A stretch of DNA of 64,000 nucleotides from Cristatella mucedo (Eukaryota > Bryozoa > Phylactolaemata > Cristatellidae), in contig WPIO01000014.1 in NCBI GenBank assembly GCA_009760855.2, forward strand, positions 3,340,501-3,404,500, in the 5' to 3' direction. A program made the translations under genes and the position numbers. Positions 5,060 through 56,760 of the stretch are shown here, piece after piece. Numbering within the stretch: position 1 is the stretch's first letter; each line of letters opens with the position of its first letter. The notes under the pieces were generated by a model. It was not told the DNA's origin and did not search any database. It saw nothing but the letters and a program-made list of their open reading frames with translations.

Positions 5060-5215
5060 CGGTGGTGGAAGACAGTGAAAAGCCCCCAAGCGCTTAGGGT
5101 GCTCGCCCAGAGCAAGGTCTGAATGAGGTCGCGGGCTCGAGCCCCGAGGCATATGTGAAGCGCCTGATTAGAGATTAAGTTCTCTCGGGGCGCTATATAA
5201 ATGAAAATGAATTAT
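5060..5215 (+). mobile_element. SINE family A (LINE-tailed)
   Basis: The head is tRNA-like (TTAGGGTGCTCGCCC ... GGTCGCGGGCTCGAGCCC). The 3' part is GTGAAGCGCCTGATTAGAG followed by ATTAAGTTCTC and GGGGCGCTATATAAATG. This tail matches the 3' end of the LINE that begins just downstream. Confidence 0.82.
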
Positions 5216-22814: not shown

Positions 22815-23131
22815 GCATCCACGCAACCACATTTAAAAGGAACCTAAAAACACACCTATTTAAGACAGCATTTAGTGGGTCCCTGTGATTCGTCCTTGAT
22901 GTGCTTATGCGTGCTGACACTGTGCATGCTGCCACTAACCACATTTGCATGCTGACCCTGTGCATGTCACCCCTAACCAAATTATTCATTTCGTTTGTTT
23001 TTCAAGCATGATTTTACTTACCATTCAATTGCATTTCACTTTACAGCAAATGTAAAGCGCCTAGAGAGAGATTAAGTTCTCTGAGGGCGCTTTATCAAGT
23101 GAATTATTATTATTATTATTATTATTATTAA
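22815..23131 (+). mobile_element. LINE 3' end, severely 5'-truncated
   Basis: Only the last few codons (ACCACATTTAAAAGGAACC), the whole 3' UTR, the terminal stem-loop and (ATT)n remain. It is close in sequence to the copy at 5.2-9.1 kb. Confidence 0.92.
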
Positions 23132-32411: not shown

Positions 32412-32615
32412 GCCTATGCCAGCGGTTCTCAACCTGAGGGTCGTGACCCCTTTGGGGTTCGAACGACCCTTTCGCAGGGGTCGCCTAAGACCGTCCAAAT
32501 ACATGAATTTCCACATTTAGCACACAATAATTTTATGGTTGGGGGTCGCCACAACATGAGGAACTGTACTTAAAGGGTCGCGGCATTAGGAAGGTTGAGA
32601 ACCACTGGCCTATAC
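32412..32615 (+). mobile_element. SPIN-like hAT MITE with target-site duplication
   Basis: The element spans 32420-32607 (188 bp). Terminal inverted repeats are CAGCGGTTCTCAACC on the left and GGTTGAGAACCACTG on the right (14 of 15 match). Flanking 8-bp duplications are GCCTATGC (32412-32419) and GCCTATAC (32608-32615), 7 of 8 identical and of the length that hAT elements make. Subterminal sequence (GACCCCTTTGGGG, GGGGTCGCCTAAGACC, ATAATTTTATGGTTGGGGG, CACAACATGAGGAACTG, AAGGGTCGCGGCATTAGGAAG) matches what I remember of the SPIN non-autonomous family. No transposase is present. Confidence 0.88.
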
Positions 32616-34084: not shown

Positions 34085-34646
34085 TCATAGCGTGTTGCCA
34101 ACGCCGCACCCGGCAGCGCCCGGACTGCTGGCTTGCGCGCGCGGCCTAGTCTTCTTCGTTCGCCCGTTTTTGCCCCCGGCCGACGCCGCTGCCGGCGAGT
34201 CCTCTTGCAAAACGGAAGCGGTCGTCGTTGTCGCCGCGGCTGGCGCAGAGCCACCGACGGCGACGGCCGACGAGGCGGCGCGCGATTTCTTGAGTGCGAA
34301 CGCCGCCGAAAGGGCTACCCCTGCAGACAGCGTCGTCGCCGGCGGCGCCGACGCCGCCGGAGACCTGGAGGCAGCGGCGTTCGCTGGCGATTTTGCGGCT
34401 GCCAACGTAGCCGCAAGCTTGGCCGCTGCGCATGCGGCGGGCGCCGCCGCCGGATCCAGAGTCGGAATCGCCTCGCTCCTCGCGGTTGCGGTCGGCGACT
34501 GCGAATGCGGCGGCTCGGCGTCTCGCATTGAGGCCTCCGCTTCCGGCCAGTGGCAGCCGATCGCCATATTGTACAAGAGGGCGCCAGCCAACGCCCCGAG
34601 GTGCGGTCCGATCACGGGAATCCAAAACCACTGGTAGTCGTCGTAG
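34085..34646 (-). CDS. Aquaglyceroporin exon 6 (last membrane segment, C-terminal tail)
   Basis: The acceptor is cttgtag. The exon begins by completing the Ser codon of exon 5 and reads [19 protein letters not shown], then [18 protein letters not shown]. This is the family's final helix. The frame then stays open to TGA at 34087-34085 through an Ala-rich stretch (for example [20 protein letters not shown]). In this GC-rich DNA other frames are open as well, so an unrecognised further intron or an earlier end cannot be excluded for the tail. The helix itself is certain. Confidence 0.85.
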
Positions 34647-37600: not shown

Positions 37601-40581
37601 TATGCGATAAGGCGCTCCTGTTTCTCGCAGCATTTGGCGGGTCCTTATGATTGGTCCTTTATATGCTTATGCGTGCTGACACTCTGCACGCTACCACTAA
37701 CCATACGGTCATGTTTCCTTTACTGCATATGTAAAGTGCATAGAAAGAGAGTTGATTCTCTGAGGGTGCTATACAAATGTATTATTATTGTTACAGCTCG
37801 TGCAAAACTCTGCAGCTAAGCTTGTCTGTGGTAAACTGCCACACTGTACCACTTCTCAACACTGGTTTGGTCTAGCAGTTAAGGTGCTCGCCCCGACCAA
37901 GGTCTGACTGAGGTCGTGGGCTCGAGCCCCGAGGCATATGTGAAGCGCCTGAATAGAGATTAAGTTCTCTTGGGGCGCTATATAAATATATTATATATAT
38001 ATTATATACTCTCTCTATATATATTATATAATATATATATATATATATACATTATATTCTCTCTCTATATATTATATCCATAAAACGGGGTGTCGAATGC
38101 AAAATTCTGTCGCACAGTTTAAGGTTCCTTTAGTCTCTTGCTTCCGCCTGCTTGTCCAAAATACAACGTAATCGTCCTTGCATCGTAGCACCCACTGTTC
38201 TGACGAGCTGGTATGGTCCAGCCGTTAGGGTGCTCGACGAGACCAAGGTCTTGCTGAGGTCTTGGGCTCGAGCCCCGTAGCACATGTGAAGCGCTTGAAT
38301 AGAGATTAAGTTCTCTTGGCGCGCTATACATAGGAAATGCATACATTTTAAGTCGCATAACCATGCATCTAACCCAGTTCAAATCCCCGGGGACTCTACC
38401 TTATGCTCGCATGGTCCCAAAGCTCGGAGCTGCCCCAGACTGGCATCGCGACATCCTCTGAAATGACAACATTAAAAAATCTACATCCACATCTAATCAC
38501 ACCTACATGTTCTTCACAGAATTTACTACTACCCGTTTGAATTATTATATGTGCGCTAGTCCGGGCTGACACTGTGCGTGCTGTCGTCAACGAACGGACC
38601 TTTGCTTCCTTTCTAGCGGATGGTAATAGCCTAAAATAGATTTATATCTCTTAGGGAGCTATGCTTCTTACGCAACGACAACTACTCTCCTGCTGCCGAC
38701 TGTGGCTCATCCTTTCCAGCGGTCCTGAGCTGCTACTTCCACGCTACTGACTACCTCAACTGCTCTCCTGACTCTGCTATGCTTCCCACTTTCTCTTTAT
38801 TGCGTGAGACGAAGTCTGTTGGCTACCGAATGCGTACCGAAAGCCGCTTAAGCTGTGAGTACGCTATACAAAACTCTCCTGCATAATACCCTCATAGTCT
38901 TTATGGCTTCGTGGAGTTACAGACGGAGATACACACATATGCAAATTTTTCTTCTTGCAATTCTTCTTATTTTCATGTGCGCACACGTGTACTTTCAGTT
39001 GTAACCCCAAAAAAGTCGTAAAGACTAAATCGTACGCTCCATTTTGTTGAAGAACTTGAAGCTCCCACGTCTTCGTTGAGCTCTGCAGTAGTATCTTTAT
39101 ACTTCTTCTTCTTCGATGAAGAATACTTTTTTTTACCCGGCCACCATTTTGAGTGTGAAGCCGTGCGCGAAAGTCTCACAGCCCAGCAGGCTCGTTAAAC
39201 TTTTTAGAATGGTCGAGGCCGGCTGAATTAGCAGCCTCGTTTGGAAAGCGACCGCAGAGCTCTAGCTAGGCTGCAGCCGAGGCTCAGGCGTCTAACCCCG
39301 CTGGCCGGCTGGCGCCGCTGGCCGGCTGGTGCCGCTGGCGTGCGTCCACTGGCGCGCAGCTCGTAGAGTGCTCGCCCACCTGAACACGGCCATTCCCCAC
39401 CCGGCCGCCGCGGTGAACAAGCGTGGACCGAGGTCTCGGGCCGGGTTGATTGCGTATCCGCAGTTGTAGCCGAGAGACGTGCCGATGGCGAGCACCATGA
39501 GTCCCACGGCTAGCGGAGCCACGTGTCGCGGCAAGGCCAGATTCCTGCCGTCCGTCGCAGCCATAATGCACAGCATCAGCAGCGAAGTTCCGACGACCTG
39601 CAACGCCGATGCAGCTCATTTCAGCGCCCCACCACCCCCCCCCCCCACCGCCACGCGCTCCTCGAGCTGTCCGCGGCGGCGGACAGCTCGAGGAGCGCCC
39701 GTCGGGTCGCTACGCTCGAGCGCTCGCGGCCGCACGAGAGCCACCGCCGCCGCCGCCGCCGCCGCATCGGTCGGGCTTTAAGACTCGATCAACAGTCGAC
39801 GAGCGAACGGCTGTACTGAGCCTACCGGGTTCGAGCGACGAACGCACTTACGCCCGCTGCCAGTTGCGGGGCGTCGCGTCGCCTAGGCGACGAGCCTCGG
39901 ACTTACTTGGTCAAAAAGTCCCTGAGCCATTCCGACATGTTCGGCTGGGTACGTAGCGAATATCGCAGCGGTCCCGTTCGTGCCGCTGACGTACCTTTGG
40001 CCGCCGTCGAAACGAGTCAGGGCCTCTGCGGACCGAAGCACAAGATCTCATTACCATCTGGTGCAAAAGAATACGATAAGCGCTTACATCTCGAAGACTA
40101 AAGTGCACGTCGGCGACGCCAGGAGCCGTGCAGGCGACAGCGGTCGTGGCAGCGCAGCTGCTCGCTTAGCGCCTGCCGGCGGCAGTGGGAGGAATTGAGC
40201 GAGGCAGGATCGAGGCTGAGCGGTACCGTGAGAGCGGTGCAACGAGGAGAATGCGGCAGCACCGGCGGCTTTGCCTAACGAATGCCAAGCAGCGAGCGGT
40301 TCCGTTATACCTCGCCGGAAGTATGGTAAGCTAGTCGCTAGTAGTTAGCGGTGTCTAAACGGACAAATTATGTCCGGGCGGTGAGCATCCAAAGAAATAT
40401 TGTACATCGAAAGCTCAGAGTTTGTTACCACTTTTCATTTCAGTCTCTCTAGCGAGCCATTTCGCATACTCTCATGGACTGCAAAATAGTTTTGAATTAT
40501 CTTTGCATTCATTCTAATATCTAGCGAGATATTTTCTTAGCACTGGTAGACTATACGATATTCTTAGTTAACATGAAGTTG

Positions 40582-43600: not shown

Positions 43601-46600
43601 AACTTACCAAAATATGTCGCGTACACAATAAAGGCTCCGAAAAAAGCTCCGACGTACTGTGCCAGCATATAGATTGGCGTCAGCTTCCACGGAATTCTGC
43701 CGAGGATGCTCATGGTAAAAGATACAGCAGGATTCAGATGCGCACCTTCAAATACAAGCGATGAATGATGCTTGCACGTCTTTGCTACCTTGGCTTTTAC
43801 TGAGTATACATTTTGGACAATCATATTAAGTTAACCGCTAGTTTAAGTTTACGTAGTTCTTTGCATTACAGTTGAGGATACATACAGTTGAGGATATTTA
43901 GTATTGAATAGGGTGTTAATCTATGCATTAGATCCCCATACAATTTTTCCTTGTGTAAGACTGTTATGACTGCTTACAATTAACAAAAGTTAAACATCCC
44001 GAAAAATTGTGCTGGCTTTCATGTTAAATAAATCAGCACTTCACACTCATTGGGCATGACCGAAAGTAACCGTATGGACGATCTTCTTCCTCTCGCTGCC
44101 CTTGACCCCGCTTCTATCCTTTATTCTTACGCAACGACAACTACTCTCCTACTGCCGACTAAGGCACATCCTTTTCAGCAGACCTGAGCTGCTACTTCCA
44201 TGCTACTCACTACCTCAACTGCTCTCCTGACTCTGCTATGCTTCCCACTTTCTCTTTGTTGCGTGAGACGAAGTCTGTTGGCTACCGAATGCGTACCGAA
44301 AGCCGCTTAGGCTGTGAGTGCGCTATACAAAACTCTCCTGCGTAACACCCACATGGTCTTTATGACTTTGTGGAGTTACAGACGGAGATACATTATTCTC
44401 TATAAAAAAAAAACGTCGCCCCTTCACACTCGCGGCTCCTTTTCTGAGCTGTCAGCCCTATTGAAGGATCCCGTCTGCACTTTTTGAAGGACGACACGTT
44501 AATCATAGCTTGATAAAACTCTTTCCAACCTGTAATCAGCATTATATGCTGATTAAGTTAATAGTACTTTCGGGAAAGACGCACACTGCTTTTTTTCATG
44601 CAATCTTTTGGAAATCTAGCCGAATAAAATGTGCAGTAGCGCACCAGCTGACGGGTTATTTCAACGCGGATGACCATAGTAACATCACTCCAACGACCAA
44701 AGGTACGGTTTGCTGAGAAATTTGCTACCAACCACGCTTGCCTAGCCTAGGTAGTCCTAGCAATAGCGAACATTGGGTGTGCTGGGGAAGGCATTAAGAA
44801 GGAAAGAATGAATGGTGACCTTAAGGATTTTCAAGTATAAGTTTCTCATCCTCTAATTTTCTTACCGGAGTAATGTATCCCTTCGTAATAGTAGGCGACC
44901 TGCTAATGCTAACATTTACTACACTTGAAATATCACTATTCTTGTAACTACCTGGCCACGACGGCAGAACAGCGTGCTTATTTTAAATTTGTAGATCCGT
45001 GAACCACATCGTGCATCAACATTTTCAGGGGATTCTATGTTGATTTTGGCAGCCCGATGATATGATTGACTTCTGAGACTAACGATTGAAAAAGAAGTAC
45101 TTTTCCTCATTTTTATGTTGGTCTTGCTATTTGTTACAATTTAGAACCTTCAAAAACTGACTAAAATGTGACGAGTACAGAAATTTTAATTGAATAAATA
45201 AACGCATGAACGTGAATTTGCGTAGTTCTTCGAGAATCAAATGACCAGCGGGGCACTTTAAGCTGCACCTATATGTCAAATCAAATTATTTACCAATATG
45301 GCTAGAGTTGCATTCAATTTAAGACCTTTAATAGTGAAACAAAAAGAATGATACATTTACACAGCTCCCTAAGAGAAATAAATATAGCTAATTCTATGTA
45401 ATTTAATATGCCGAAAAGGAATTTCGACATATTCCGTTCTCCGTACAACTGCGTCATGGGAAGAAAGCGTTTTAGGGCGAGCGTAGTTAATTTGAAACGA
45501 CCCTCTCAACTGCTGATTCCTAAATAATCGAGCTTACAAGCGCAGCAATTGTTATGGGCAATCAGCCAAAGATAAAGCACTGCCAGGAAACCTACTAAAC
45601 TAATGTAACTCATAACGGTCTTGTGACACACAGTTGTAGTCCGTCTAAGCGCCGGTGGGCGAAAAGTGAGGACTGTGACCGCATCACTACGATGAGCTGC
45701 ATTTGTCATTAGATTAGGAATGTCCAGCCTTCGCTTGGATTTTTAGATTATCTATACGTTTTTCGTTGTTGGGCAAGTTTTTTTTAATCATGCGGCCGTC
45801 AGGGCCACAAGTCGCAAGTCACTGTTAGGTAAGAAAGCAAGCTGTGCCTAACAAAATAGTTGCGATTACCCGGCCGATTCAGGCTTTCGATAGAGTTAGT
45901 CATAAATTTGACACCATATCGGCATCATTTTAACTTGATCATATCTATAAGATCCTCTCATCACGAAGTCCTCAGTACAAATATTATTTGAGAAATATCA
46001 ATAAAGAATCTGACCACATGAAATTAGTCTTACAAGTCCACGAGCAATTTAATTTCCGAAGTCAACAAACGAACAAGAAATAAAGGCGAAATAATAGCTC
46101 AATAATAATAATATACTTGCATAGCTCTCTCGACGATTTTAATCTCTTTCTAAACACTTTACAGATGCTTAATAGAAATTATTAGCAATTGATCGGTGGT
46201 AAAATCCGCAAGCAGCAGGCTCAGTGTAAGCAGGCACATGCATACAAAGGACAAATCACAAAACCCCACCAAATGCAATAATAAACAGGTGTATTTTAAG
46301 CTTCTTTCTAAATGTCGTCATGTCAGGGGACGTTGTGACGTGCGTCGGTAGTGAGTTGGGAGCATACGAACTAAAGACACGGTCTCTAAAGCTTCGAGGT
46401 TCATACGAGGTATAGCTAAACGAGTAAGAACAGCGGGTAGTACTATTTCTTGGTCTGGTGGTGGAGAAGTTCTGTCAGGTAGGCTGGAGCCAGAGAATGA
46501 AGGAACCTAAAAGTAAGTGACAGAACCTTGAAGTTCAAAAGTTTATGAACCAGTTTCGATGTGGTATCTCTGTCTAAGCAAGCCAAAATTTTAGCAGTGT

Positions 46601-49600
46601 TGTGCAGCTGAAAGTAGGCAGACTTAACTATGGAACTGATGTGGCCATTTAATAAAAGCTCACTTTGGAATAGGCACCCAGATTTCGTGTAGATGGTACA
46701 AGAGATGTGATGAAAGAGCTAATTTTTTAAGCGTTAAGCTTTCAATTTCCGAGTCACACTTGATTTTCCCGTAACTGGTAAATTGGTGTTATCGCCATTC
46801 AATTTGAGAAAGTTTGCTGCCATCCATGTGCGGATGTCATCGACACATGCTGCAAGGGTGTGTCGAGAATTCGATGTGCTGGAGGGCTGGGAGAGATCAA
46901 AGCAAAGGAACATCTGAGTGTCATCTTTATAGAAGTGAAAGCCTAGATAGTGCTTGGCGATCACATCGGCAAGACGGAGAGCATAAACTGTGGAAGAAGC
47001 GGACCGAACACAGAGCCTTGAGGCACCCCTTACTTAAGTGGTTCCTCGGATGTTTTTTGCCTGTTCAAATCAATACTCTGGAGTCTCCCACTGAGGTAGG
47101 ACCTGAACCGTTGCGGCGCAATGCCAGCGATGCCCAGGCGAGATGCAAGATGCTCAACAAGGACTCTGTGATCAGTATTATCGAATGCTGCTGACAGATC
47201 GAGCAAAACAAACCGAGAGACTTTACCCAAGTCTGGATTCCTCAGATCATAGTTATACACCCGAAGCAATGCTGACTCTGTGGAGTGAATAGCTCTAAAC
47301 CCAGGCTGGAAATTACATGCAAGGTTTGAGGTCTCAATATAAGAGTTGTGAAGGCACAGCTGGAGATTATTTAGCAGCTACTAGAAACGATACCGAAGGA
47401 AAAACGCTATTGACATCAGATCCTAGAAATCTCCAGCAAAATATTTGGTCATTGATAAAATAGTAAAGAGATGAGAGTACAAATAACTACTGTGGTACGT
47501 CGCCATAAATGAATATGTGTGTGTATCGCCGAAAGTAAAAATACACAAATATATAATTAGGCTCCTATATAACTTTATTTTTCCATTGCTGGAAGTACTC
47601 TGGAAGTACTACAGATAGTAGGCAGAGCTAAAAAAAATATATCATTTGTTTCAGAGTGTGCCGCAATATTAATTAATGTTCGTAATTCTAAGCACAGCGG
47701 TAGTGGCGAGTGACAGAAAGCGAAAGGGTAGTACTATTCAAGAAATTATGTATTTTTTGGTCTAGCTGTTAAGATGCTCGCCCCGACCAAGGTCTGACTG
47801 AGGTCGTGGGCTCGAGCCTCGAGGCATATGTGAAGCCTGAATAAAGATTAAGTTCTTGTAGGGCGCTATAAACATGAATTATATTTGAATTATATTTTAT
47901 TCTTTGCCTCAACTTCTGCTTCTGAGATCTCCACTGCAGGAGATATGTGTATATATGTAAGCGAAGAAGTTTCTCTGATGTATCAACACATATAGAGAAA
48001 TGTGGAATGAACACAATCGGTATTAGTTTTGCGAGAATTGCTTTTGTTGTAATTTGACTGTGTGGGCCTAATTTTTCCCATTTACGGATTTAGTTAGTTT
48101 TGCCACGTTTGAAAGGGTTTATCCATTTTTACCAATGTACTGGTAAGTGTACGCATTCGCGTATATGTTCTCGGTGACTTGAAACACCAATATAAAATCA
48201 TCGTGTGCACGTGTTACATTTCTCACTATGCTTACACTAAGAAGTCACTACGAAATCGGTCATGCACGCTCTGCTTAAAGCACTCTTACAGGAAAAAACA
48301 AATGGCATCTGGAAATTCAAATGTGGTCTCTAACCTGAAACGCCACCACTAATGTAGGCTCCCATAGTAATGCCTAAGCACCACGCTAGGTTTACTGACA
48401 GAAAGTCTCCACTGGTCTCTCTGCTCAAGACTTGTTGTGCCAATGAGCCGTCGCCTATTATCTAAAAAGTTAAAGATGCCATTATAATTTAACAATAGAA
48501 ATTGCCTTCACAAGAATACTTAGTACGTAATATGCACAGCAGGATGCTTCCTTAGAGATATCTTTAATATGAATTAAATGCTGGTTGACGGTAGAGCATC
48601 CAGTGTACTTTTTAAAAAGTTGCACAAGCAAAGAGTGTCAGTCGAATAATAGCATTGCCCTCTTAACGTTCCGCCTTGTCGGAGAAGATCATAGCATTAT
48701 ACAACTACCGAGTTGCTGTAAGTGCTAGAACAGTTATTCAATGGAAAGAGAGCTCTTATAAACCTTTAGTAAAACCTCGGATACACACCAAGTGTGTGTG
48801 GACACTGGGATCTGTTTACCAGCGCCTCAGCAGCTTCTAGATCGTACAATGAGTAGTGCGAAAATGTCTCACACAAATTTCTAACATTTTTTTCTTGCAG
48901 CATTAAGCAAGTTAGCGCATTACCGACACCCACTACACATCAATAATTAGTATTATGGTATCATAGTTAGTTCACTTTAATGTCAAATCAGTTGAATAGC
49001 AAGGCATTCTGGTAATTAAAAACAACAAGGTCATCGGCATCCAAATTGCGAGCATAAATTGGAGGTGGCCAGTGCAACTAAAATCCAGTGCAGCTACAAA
49101 AATACAGGCAGCCCCTGACTAACGATTCTTCGACTGACGAAAATTCGGAAATTCGAACTCGGCTATAAATATGATCAAAATTAAAAATATATCCAATAAA
49201 ACTTTTAAATCCGCGCGTGGTCAGTAGATTTGACAATGCGGCAAACAAAAAGAAAACTATGGAAGGAAGAAAACTATGTCTGACAGCTATGCATTGTGGG
49301 TACTGAGGGCTCTCCGTCACGAAACCATGAAGTGAAAGAAATGGCTGAGGCATTCTCATCTATCGCTCACAGAATAAAATTGCTAGAACAAAATTACTGC
49401 AACTTAATAATAATAATACACTTGATATAGTGCCCTCGGAGAACTCAATCTCTTTCTAGGCAATTCACATCTGTTGCAAAGGAAGCACGATTGAATGGTT
49501 AGCGGTAGCATGCTGAATAAACAGCAAGAATAATATGGCTAGGGGTGATATGCATAGGGTCATCATGCAAGTATGGTTAGTAGCAGCATGCACAGTATCA

Positions 49601-52714: not shown

Positions 52715-55700
52715 TCGTCAGCGCTCGTGAGAAGTAGGTAAATTCAGCATCCGGTCCCAGGAGGCAAACCGCCACTTCAATTTTGCCGCTAGCTTGAATC
52801 TCATCTCGCCGCTTCATCTCGCCGCAAGCCAGTCGTAAACGCAGAGCGGCAGTCGCTGGACCTCTCTGGTGGCTGGAGGGCTCAAGTTAGGAGTGCTACC
52901 AGCGGAAATCAGCTGGATAGTTCTAGATCGACCGTGCAAGTGCAGCTAAATAGTACTGGAACCCGATGCTGCTTAATAACCCTGCTGCTTGATAATCCTT
53001 CTGCTTAACAATCCTGCTGCTAATTAATCCTTTCACTTAATAGTCGTGCTGCTTAATAATCCTACTGCATAAAAATATTGCTGCTTAATGATCCTGCAGC
53101 TAAATAATAATCCTGTTGCATAATAATGCTGCTGTTTAATCATCCTGTTGCTTAATGAACCTGCTGCTCTCTAGCGGAGCTCAAGAAGGTGCAGCTGAAT
53201 AGTGCTGGAGCCTGATGTCCTTAATAATCCTGCTGCTTAATAATCCTATTGCTTTATAATCCGTGGGCACACGTGACAAGTAGGACAATTCAGAATCTGA
53301 TCGCACTAGACCGACCGTTGCTTGAATTTTACCGCTCGCTTGAATCTCATCTTCCTGCTTCTTGTTACTGCTAGCCTTCGTCTTACTGCTTAGCTGTTTG
53401 CGTACGATTAGCGGTCGCTCAACCTCTCTGCCTGCTAGGAGAGCTCTAGTTCGGACTCCTCCTAGTAGAGAGCGGCGGAATAATTCTAGTCATATTAAGC
53501 GACTGCAGCTGCATAGTGCTGGAGCCAGATCTTCAATAATCCTGCTGCTTAATAATCCTGCTGCTTATTAGTCCAGTTGCTTAATAATACCGCTGCTTCA
53601 TAATCGTGTTGCTTAATGATCCTGCTGTTTAATGATCCTGCTGCTCTCCAGCTGAGCTCCAGCAAGTGAAGCTCAATAATGCAGGAGCCTGATGTGCTTA
53701 ATCATTCTGCTGGTTAATAATCTTGCTGGTTAATTATCCAGCTGTGTAATCATCCTGCTGAATAATAGTCCTTATGCTTAATAATGCTGCTACTTAGTAA
53801 TCCCGATACTTTATAAATCTGCTGATTTATAATTCTGCTGCTCAATAATCTTACAGCATTACAAAACTGCTGCTTAATCATCCTGTTGCTTAGTGATCCT
53901 GTTGCTTAGTGATCCTGCTGCTCTATGGGGGAGCAATGGCTAACTTAATAGTGCTGGACCCTGATGCTCTTTATGATCCTTCAGCTTAATAATCCTGCTG
54001 CTCTATTATACTGCTGCTTAACCATCCTGCTGCTGCTTAATAATCCCAGTGCTTAATAATTCTGGCACTTAATAATCCTGCTTCTTAGTAATCCCGCTAC
54101 TTACTAAATCGGCACACGTTAGAAGTAGCACAGTTCAGTGTCTGGACAAAGTTGGCCGACCACAACTTGAATTTCGCTTCTAGCATGAATCTTATCTCGC
54201 TGCTTTGCCCGGCCACTAGCCAGTCGTATACATAGGGGCGGCGCTCACTGGACCACTCTGGCTGCTAGGAGATCTCTAGTTAGCTATCTCTAGCTAGTGC
54301 TCCTAATGGAGAGCATGGATGGTTCTAGATAGATGTAGCAAGTACAGCTGGATAATGCTGGATGCTAAAGCTGCATACTAACTCTGCAGCTTATTAATCC
54401 AGCTGCTTCTTAATTATGTTGCTTTATAATCCTGCTGCTTTATAATCCTGATATCTAATAATCCGGTTGCCTAATCATCCTGCTGTTTAATAATGCTGCT
54501 CATAAGACACCCTAAGAGTGTGGCTGGATAACAAGGCTTCGGTCTTCTAATAGGTGATGCTGATGTGCGACCATTACCATGTGCTCAAAATGTAGGTGTC
54601 GTTTTCGGCCATTGCAGCTTCATTATCGCGTTGCTTAATGATCCTTCTGCACTCTTGGCGAGCTCCAGCAAGTGCAGCTGCATAGTGCAGGAGCCTGATG
54701 CTCTTTATATGCCTGCTGCTTAATATTCCTGATGCATAATAATCCTGCTGCTTAGTAATCCTGCTTTTTAATATTCCTACTGCTCAATAGTATTGCTGTT
54801 TAGTAATCCTGCAGCTTCATAATCCTGCATTAATAATCCTGCTACTTAATAATCTTGCTTTTTAATAATCCTGCTGCTTAATGATACTGCTGCTTGATAA
54901 TCCTACTGCTTAGTAATCCTGCTCATAATTAATTGTGTGCTATTTATTAATCCTGCTGCTTAATAATGCTACTGCCTAATAATCCTGCTGCCTAATGGTC
55001 CTGCTGCTTAATAGTCCTGGTGAATAATAAGCCTGCTGCATAATAATTCTGCTGCCTAATAACCCCGATGCTTAATAATCCTGTTTCTTAATAAATATGT
55101 ACATACAAGGAGTAGGGTAATTCAGCGCCCGGTCCTAGGTAAGCCTGCTAATTAATAATCCTGCTTCTTACTAATCCTGCTGCTTAATAATCCTCCTGCG
55201 TTATAATCTTGTGGCGCTAATTAATCATGCAGTTTAATAATTCTGCTACCTGATGATCGCGCTGCTTAATAATACTAATGCCTAATCATACTGCTGCCTC
55301 ATAATCCTTTTGCTTAATAAGCCTATAGCCTAATTATCCTTTCATTGGCGTACGTGAAAAGTAGGGCGATTCAGCATCCTGTCTCGTGTGGCTGACAGCC
55401 GTTTTAATTTTGCAGCTAGCTTGAATGTCATCGTGCTGCTTCGTCTTGCTGCTAGCCAGTCGTTAATGCGAGGTCAGGTTCGCTGGACTTCTCTGGTTGC
55501 AAAGAGAGCTCTAATTAGAAGTGTTTCTAGTGGATAACAACTGGATAGTTATAGATCGATCTAGCGCTAGCGGCTGGATAGTGCTGGAGTCTGATGCTAA
55601 TTATTAATCCCCCCGCAGCTTAATGATCTGGCTGCTTAATAGTCCTGCTAAATACTTAATACATTAGCACAAGTGAGAAGTATGAAAATTCAGAATCTGG

Positions 55701-56760
55701 TCATAGTCGGTCGGATGCTGCTTAAATTTTGCTTCTTTGCATGAATCTCATCCGGCTGCTTCATTTGGCTGCTAGCCAGTCGTATACGTAGGGGTGGCGC
55801 TCACTGGACCACTCTGGCTGGTACAAGAACCTTTAGTTAGGTGTGCTTATAGTGGAGAACAGCCTGATAGTTCTAGATAGATATTGCGAGTACAGTTGAA
55901 TAATGCTGGAGCCTGGTACTGCTCTATAACCCTGCAGCTCAAGGATCCATTCACTTAATGATCCTGCTGCTCTACTGGGAAGTTCGAGCAAGTGCAGCTG
56001 AATAATGCAGGAACCTGATGCCCTTAGTAATCATCCTTCTGCTTAGTAATACTGCTGCTTAACTATCCTCCGGCTCAACAATCCTGCTGTTTAGTAATCC
56101 TTCATAATAGTCCTGCTGCTTAATAATTGCTATACTTTATAAACCTGCTGGTTTATAATTCTGCTGTTCAATAATCCGGCTTCTTGATAATATTGCTGCT
56201 TAATAATCAAAACGCTTATAAATCCAACAGAATAATAAAACTACTGCTTAATAATCCTGTTGCTTAATGATCCTGCTGATCTATAGAGGAGCCCTGGCTA
56301 GGAGAATTGTGCTTGATCTTGATGCAGTACGAATCGTACTGCTTAATAATTCTGTTAGTAATCCTGCTGCTTAATAATCCTGCCGCTTAATAATCTTTCT
56401 GTTTAATAATCCCGCTGTTTGGTAAGCCTGCTAATTGATAAAAATATTGATAATAATCCATAATAATTCGGCGGCTTAATAATACTGCTGTTTAGTAAGT
56501 CTGCTGGCCAAAAATTCTGCGGTATAATAATCCTCCATAATAATCGTGCTTCTTAATAATCCTGTTGTTTAATACTAATAATTATTAATCCTGCTGTTCT
56601 ATAATCCTGCTAATTAATAATCCTGCTACTTAATAATCTTGCAGCTGGAGAATCCTCTTGCTTAATAATACTGCTGTTTAATCATCCTTTGCTTAATAAA
56701 CCTGCTGCTCTCAAGGGTAGCTCCAGAAAGTGCAGCTTAATAATCCTGCTTCTTCCTAGG
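52715..56760 (+). repeat. Higher-order satellite: 16-bp monomers plus a ~250-bp module
   Basis: The basic monomer is CCTGCTGCTTAATAAT (16 bp), repeated in degenerate form over most of 52.97-56.75 kb. The array is punctuated by a longer module. The module starts near 52725, 53265, 54110, 55347 and 55665 (plus a truncated start near 55090). It runs from CACGTGAGAAGTAGG ... ATTCAG through TTGAATCTCATC and CTAGCCAGTCGTA to GGATAGTTCTAGATCGA. A second shorter module, around GAGCTCCAGCAAGTGCAGCT followed by GAATAGTGCAGGAGCCTGATG, recurs near 53170, 53645, 54655 and 55980. Stops in every frame make coding function unlikely. Confidence 0.93.

Follow-up and report, generated by a model that had tools for sequence, protein, structure and literature searches.

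The 188-bp element at positions 32420-32607 of the window (the whole 64-kb stretch of Cristatella mucedo DNA that was analysed) is a non-autonomous hAT element (MITE) of the Buster group. We consider it very probable that it is one copy of a high-copy MITE of the Buster/Charlie hATs, of the SPIN/rodent URR1 type, with the explanation proposed below. By mechanism, the element is an ordinary MITE; by distribution, it is in an unexpected place, and it probably adds Cristatella mucedo to the hosts of a kind of element that is already known. SPIN (SPACE INVADERS) is a textbook example of transfer of DNA among distantly related animals. Every additional invertebrate host of SPIN helps in dating the wave and in finding its possible carriers. 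In the present case, an apparent protostome carries hundreds of copies, and their consensus agrees with mouse DNA along parts of both non-coding ends. The consensus, longer variants of the element and a nested insertion make the timing and direction of its movement testable through comparison with relatives of the host. The gain is incremental, since the kind of element and the kind of inference are already known.

The element and its family in the host genome

The original prediction described a 188-bp element with 14/15 matching terminal repeats and near-identical 8-bp duplications, which the closer analysis confirmed. The terminal inverted repeats (TIRs, Table 1) are alike at 15 of 16 positions (14/15 over the first 15), and the flanks agree at 7 of 8. 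Inverted ends alike at 15/16 or better delimit 280 intervals of 60-3000 bp in the window, five of which also have flanks alike at 7/8 or better. Three of these five lie in a TA microsatellite, one joins two opposite L2-type LINE tails (recognised through the coordinates of the window repeat comparison), and one is the 188-bp element. Dinucleotide-preserving shuffles of the window (30 in total) gave a mean of 2.4 inverted pairs at 15/16 or better and none with matching flanks as well. The motif GGGTCG/CGACCC is present at five places in the element, where 0.05 would be expected, and elsewhere in the window no stretch of 188 bp reaches this number. Within the 64-kb window, a search for a second copy returned short chance-level matches only.

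Table 1. Features of the window, with positions counted from its first letter.
Feature	Positions	Strand	Basis or remark
Non-autonomous hAT element (Buster/Charlie group, likely SPIN type)	32420..32607	+	188 bp, 5.9% from family consensus
Target-site duplication, left, GCCTATGC	32412..32419	.	Flank comparison
Target-site duplication, right, GCCTATAC	32608..32615	.	7/8 alike; TA centre, Buster-type (available parts of PMC3517528, PMC3499496)
5' terminal inverted repeat, CAGCGGTTCTCAACCT	32420..32435	+	End comparison
3' terminal inverted repeat, CAGTGGTTCTCAACCT on the - strand	32592..32607	-	15/16 alike
5' subterminal GGGTCG/CGACCC at 32438, 32464, 32478	32438..32483	.	Motif count
3' subterminal GGGTCG at 32543, 32575	32543..32580	+	Motif count
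Last aquaglyceroporin exon	34085..34646	-	AQP3 best match in the first 39 codons searched; frame to stop at 34085
Aquaglyceroporin exon, 218 bp, second NPA box	39380..39597	-	Pfam scan, PDB match, boundaries by eye
Aquaglyceroporin exon, 119 bp	39907..40025	-	Assigned by eye; without own Pfam match
Aquaglyceroporin exon, 138 bp, first NPA box	43608..43745	-	Pfam scan, PDB match, boundaries by eye

The assignment as a hAT MITE with a target duplication also holds genome-wide, in the form of further copies, a shared consensus and duplications. The genome that was searched comprises 572,011,866 bases in 688 contigs. With the element as query, there were 2226 first-look candidates (a count without a control). 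Of the 2226, 40 were scored. Besides the window copy, these comprise 39 copies with an identity of 89-92%, and the alignments extend over 182 or more of the 188 bases in every case. The exact 5'-end pattern (two free positions) has 333 matches in the genome and the exact 3'-end pattern (one free position) has 132, with 0 matches for either reversed control. The copy count that had been proposed as a check on the prediction thus yields hundreds of copies, on many contigs. The 333 5' ends imply about 2,400 copies at a divergence of 9.0%, or about 1,050 at 5.3%.

These two divergences come from different samples. The 28 best-scoring copies (the window copy and the next 27), a set biased towards copies resembling the window copy, gave a 187-bp consensus with a mean substitution divergence of 5.3%. 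Among the matches listed for the 5' end, 20 copies were picked by hand. Their majority base equals that of the best-28 consensus at 187/187 positions, of which 1-23 fall within the sampling pattern itself. When these 23 bases are excluded, the copies diverge by 9.0% on average (over the 18 that have 60 or more comparable sites), and the pooled Kimura distance over all 20 copies is 0.098. Differences are found at 17% of CpG sites versus 8% of other sites.

For the ends and target sites, a set of 53 copies was used (the best 28, the 20 sampled by their 5' end and five chosen by an interior pattern). Both ends are kept within 2 bp in 42 of them. Short TIRs (15/16) and an 8-bp duplication (7/8 in the window copy; at least 7/8 in 30 of the 42 copies with both ends) place the family in the hAT superfamily. 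For Buster-group hATs, the available parts of two sources give the target duplication rule nnnTAnnn (PMC3517528, PMC3499496), and the second lists SPIN within this group. In the family described here, 40 of the 42 copies have a TA centre on one or both sides. Both filings rest on tested features, because the duplications and the TA centre were found across copies. The family also has the traits of a MITE: it is short and non-coding (187-bp consensus), has many uniform copies with shared ends (333 exact 5' ends), and 14 of the 20 5'-sampled copies are full-length.

Likeness to rodent DNA and origin of the family

The host itself appears to use the invertebrate mitochondrial code; apparently it is not a vertebrate, and it appears to be a protostome. 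The COX1 gene on contig C688 (21,008 bases) gives an uninterrupted reading when TGA is taken as Trp. It contains six AGA and three AGG codons, at positions which, by conserved COX1 motifs, we judge to be Ser, and the protein seems mollusc-like. Five codes were tried on it: table 2 leaves no open frame longer than 300 residues, while tables 4, 5, 9 and 13 each leave one, among which table 5 was chosen by judgement. The GC content is about 45-46% in loci other than C688. There are five further COX1-like matches on four contigs (C166, C83, C549, C299), possibly nuclear copies of mitochondrial DNA.

Several pieces of printed mouse DNA resemble the consensus. One of the mouse genes concerned is named FDH in its source, and we take it to be Adh5. 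As printed in the available parts of the sources, whole primers for mouse Ate1 match at 18/20 (bases 1-19) and 18/20 (bases 56-75) (PMC2767504), a whole primer for mouse Kcnq1ot1 matches at 19/20 (bases 60-79) (PMC6221546), and a stretch of the mouse Adh5 intron matches in 67/81 columns (bases 107-187), ending exactly at the last base of the element (PMC8376875). All four, the three primers and the intron stretch, score above the best of 1000 shuffles; the intron alignment scores 90 versus a best shuffle of 34. Rat Avpr1b primers match at 20/22 and 18/21 (available part of PMC4676835). They add little: the score of one (28) equals that of the best among 1000 shuffles, also 28, while the other is slightly above its best shuffle (26 versus 24) but has its matched core in the inverted end. 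For a mouse locus from the available part of PMC11247941, the comparison was made with the window copy alone and gave a match in 28/34 columns.

The match to mouse DNA extends beyond the TIRs at both ends (bases 56-75, 60-79 and 107-187). We take the rodent copies, which their sources leave unnamed, to be URR1, a family of hAT-Charlie elements that is close to SPIN. Set against these copies (the mouse Ate1, Kcnq1ot1 and Adh5 regions), the consensus is matched by printed mouse DNA at bases 1-19, 56-79 and 107-187. The printed mouse sequences are fragments only, and the intron copy has decay of its own (67/81). The original prediction had called the element SPIN-like. This is supported by the Buster-type target site and by the printed mouse DNA beyond the TIRs, so that membership in the SPIN type is likely; the label depends on rodent copies to which their sources do not give the name SPIN. 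The family shares with SPIN a short non-coding element with hAT ends, an 8-bp duplication with a TA centre, hundreds of copies and a host far from rodents. It differs in that the 187-bp form may be particular to Cristatella mucedo; in the partial search of the genome, no SPIN transposase was found.

Horizontal transfer is the likely but unproven origin of the family in this host, since non-coding sequence would hardly have stayed so rodent-like since the split of protostomes and deuterostomes. It is plausible that this adds a new taxon through horizontal transfer. More specifically, we cautiously favour the view that a SPIN/URR1-type hAT crossed between vertebrates and a protostome lineage and then, if the assumed rates hold, spread some tens of millions of years ago in a burst to roughly one to a few thousand copies. 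The 187-bp element would be a host-specific derivative and its presence an independent invasion of invertebrates. A protostome host is Rhodnius prolixus (available part of PMC11614815). For the snail Biomphalaria glabrata, the available part of PMC5440852 reports about 1,000 copies of a hAT with significant identity to SPIN. That family has in common with ours a hAT resembling SPIN, a high copy number and a protostome host, a likeness drawn by description only.

The main rival to horizontal transfer is constraint on the ends. The family might be an old, vertically inherited Buster-group hAT of animals, and transposase binding, by conserving some 100 bp at either end, would then explain the resemblance to the rodent ends; we regard this as unlikely. 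Part of the rodent likeness could indeed be constraint, because Buster families share about 106 bp of their ends: the available part of PMC4298943 describes Buster elements as alike over about 106 bp of terminal regions. The TGGGTCGCG subterminal repeats given there for Buster1 also resemble the GGGTCGCG motif of the element, and Buster1 and Buster2 share with it the Buster group, MITE forms and a patchy distribution. However, their TIRs in the same source, such as CAGGGCTTCTTAAAC and CAGGGGTGGCCAACCT, differ from CAGCGGTTCTCAACCT. Moreover, mouse DNA agrees with the consensus outside the TIRs and the GGGTCG motifs too (bases 65-79 and most of 107-171). The burst divergence of about 9% dates the spread and not the arrival of the family; therefore, age does not decide between vertical and horizontal descent. 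Horizontal transfer would explain the non-coding likeness between rodents and a protostome better.

We give still less credence to the idea that the host has another hAT family, unrelated to SPIN and resembling it at the ends only, to which this MITE belongs. The core of the consensus (about bases 80-106) has no counterpart in the printed DNA found, and no transposase was tied to the MITE in the 50 hAT-domain loci inspected, both of which would suit such a family. Against it, longer variants in the genome carry further interior sequence, namely GCAAAATTACAGTTATGAAGTAGC and its neighbours. This interior would also be that of the rodent element, which serves as a lead only. Contamination of the assembly with rodent DNA would account for the likeness to mouse DNA, but is in practice already refuted by copy number and contig spread: the copies number in the hundreds and are distributed over many long contigs, those that were read carry individual differences and, for the most part, individual target duplications, and one has been interrupted by an insert whose beginning resembles a host LINE tail.

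The end patterns have 0 matches in the viral_contigs and genome_contigs collections. A host LINE pattern and a LINE protein likewise have 0 matches in these viral and prokaryote collections. Such zeros say little, because the contents are viral, bacterial and archaeal sequence.

Proposed mechanism, longer variants and age

In the hAT mechanism, the transposase binds the inverted ends and subterminal motifs, excises the element and reinserts it, leaving an 8-bp duplication. We propose that internal deletion from a longer element gave rise to the MITE, which would have been mobilised in trans by a hAT transposase binding the 16-bp ends and the subterminal GGGTCG motifs. Its spread would have occurred mainly in one burst, since by eye the shared variants show no strong linkage; there are, however, longer sister variants. 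The window copy would have inserted beside the aquaglyceroporin gene and decayed since. Entry into the invertebrate lineage by horizontal transfer is a less certain step of this scheme. As to linkage, derived bases common to at least six of the 53 copies show no strong association by eye; there are small excesses at a few pairs, e.g. four copies common to sites with 7 and 12.

A search for an autonomous hAT partner of the MITE, which had been proposed along with the original prediction, found none. This search was partial and covered 50 of 138 hAT-domain loci, five of 12 variant 5' sites, one long interval on contig C61 and three of six GCAAAATTACAGTTATGAAGTAGC sites. The 138 loci are the matches to hAT domains among 150 scored of 766 candidates. 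Around 50 of them (30 Hermes-like, 20 weaker), no MITE match was found at E<=0.001. The same 50 loci have three end-like sites with 3 mismatches, which is about chance level by a rough estimate. There are 12 sites in the genome at which something other than the customary GC follows the 5' part; reading the five that have AT there showed each to be a MITE copy.

Among the hAT-domain matches, there is a very young Hermes-like family (L009-L038), spread over many contigs. It accounts for 63 of the 138 matches, with at least 69 bits (the next match has 45). Over the main aligned piece, 29 of its loci are 98.9-99.9% alike to L014. The open frames mostly reach up to about 640 aa, and the end of this family (...CCGGTACAGCCCTA) is unlike that of the MITE.

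The interval C61:669917-673700 (L105, L106) was considered as an autonomous element because of its length and was rejected, since its two 256-base ends are an interrupted MITE. The ends were read: the insert begins like an L2-type LINE tail, and the MITE copy that it splits still has the perfect duplication CTATAGAG on both sides. At C15:346346-346827, there is a 482-bp variant with the same two ends as the MITE. Its interior motif GCAAAATTACAGTTATGAAGTAGC is found at six genome sites, including this one (control 0). For two further sites, the part that was read shows this 5' end and a longer interior; as the 5' end lies about 200 bases before the motif, they look short.

The good preservation of the window copy had been taken as a sign of recent activity relative to the decayed repeats around it, a claim that the comparison does not support. 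The window copy is 5.9% from the consensus and ranks 27 of 53 in the mixed sample, the 5'-sampled copies average 9.0%, and several (not all) repeats of the window look equally young or younger. Identities within pairs are 91.5, 95.1 and 94.4% for LINEs, 93.6% for a SINE and 93.3% for another repeat; pair identity and distance from a consensus are different measures, and halving the former gives a rough comparison. Decayed repeats are also present, with many further pairs only 64-85% alike. The claim is countered as well by the insert with an L2-like beginning that splits the MITE copy on C61. For this reason, and because several window repeats look no older, the genome has probably seen more recent activity than this burst. 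Of the age estimate that had been suggested, the divergence part stands (5.3% for the best 28 copies, 9.0% for the 5'-sampled ones), while the conversion to years rests on assumed rates. The burst would be 20-45 million years old at 5e-9 and 2.2e-9 per site and year, rates that were not measured in this host.

The neighbouring gene and other repeats of the window

An aquaglyceroporin gene had been noted close to the element. It is real and has four exons on the - strand, with boundaries set by eye (Table 1). Three exons were searched against the Protein Data Bank, with AQP3 as the best match, and two of the three exons scanned reach the Pfam MIP family. The exon lengths of 138, 119 and 218 bp are the same in vertebrate AQP3, which would mean that the intron positions are old. 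About 1.5 kb separate the stop codon that ends the frame of the last exon from the element, which is located past it. Judging from sequence, nothing suggests a host function for the element or an action on the aquaglyceroporin gene.

Some other repeats were observed in the window. A 269-bp repeat pair (38665-38933 and 44124-44392) is 93% alike, and one of its copies lies between two aquaglyceroporin exons. A tRNA-like SINE is found at 5070-5215, 37855-38000, 38201-38346 and 47745-47890. It has a 3' end similar to that of the L2-type LINE tails (e.g. at 22826-23130), of the form GCGCCT...GAGATTAAGTTCTCT...GGCGCT. This similarity suggests that the SINE may borrow the machinery of the L2-type LINE. 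Finally, a degenerate 16-bp minisatellite (TGCTGCTTAATAATCC) forms several stretches at 52967-56709.
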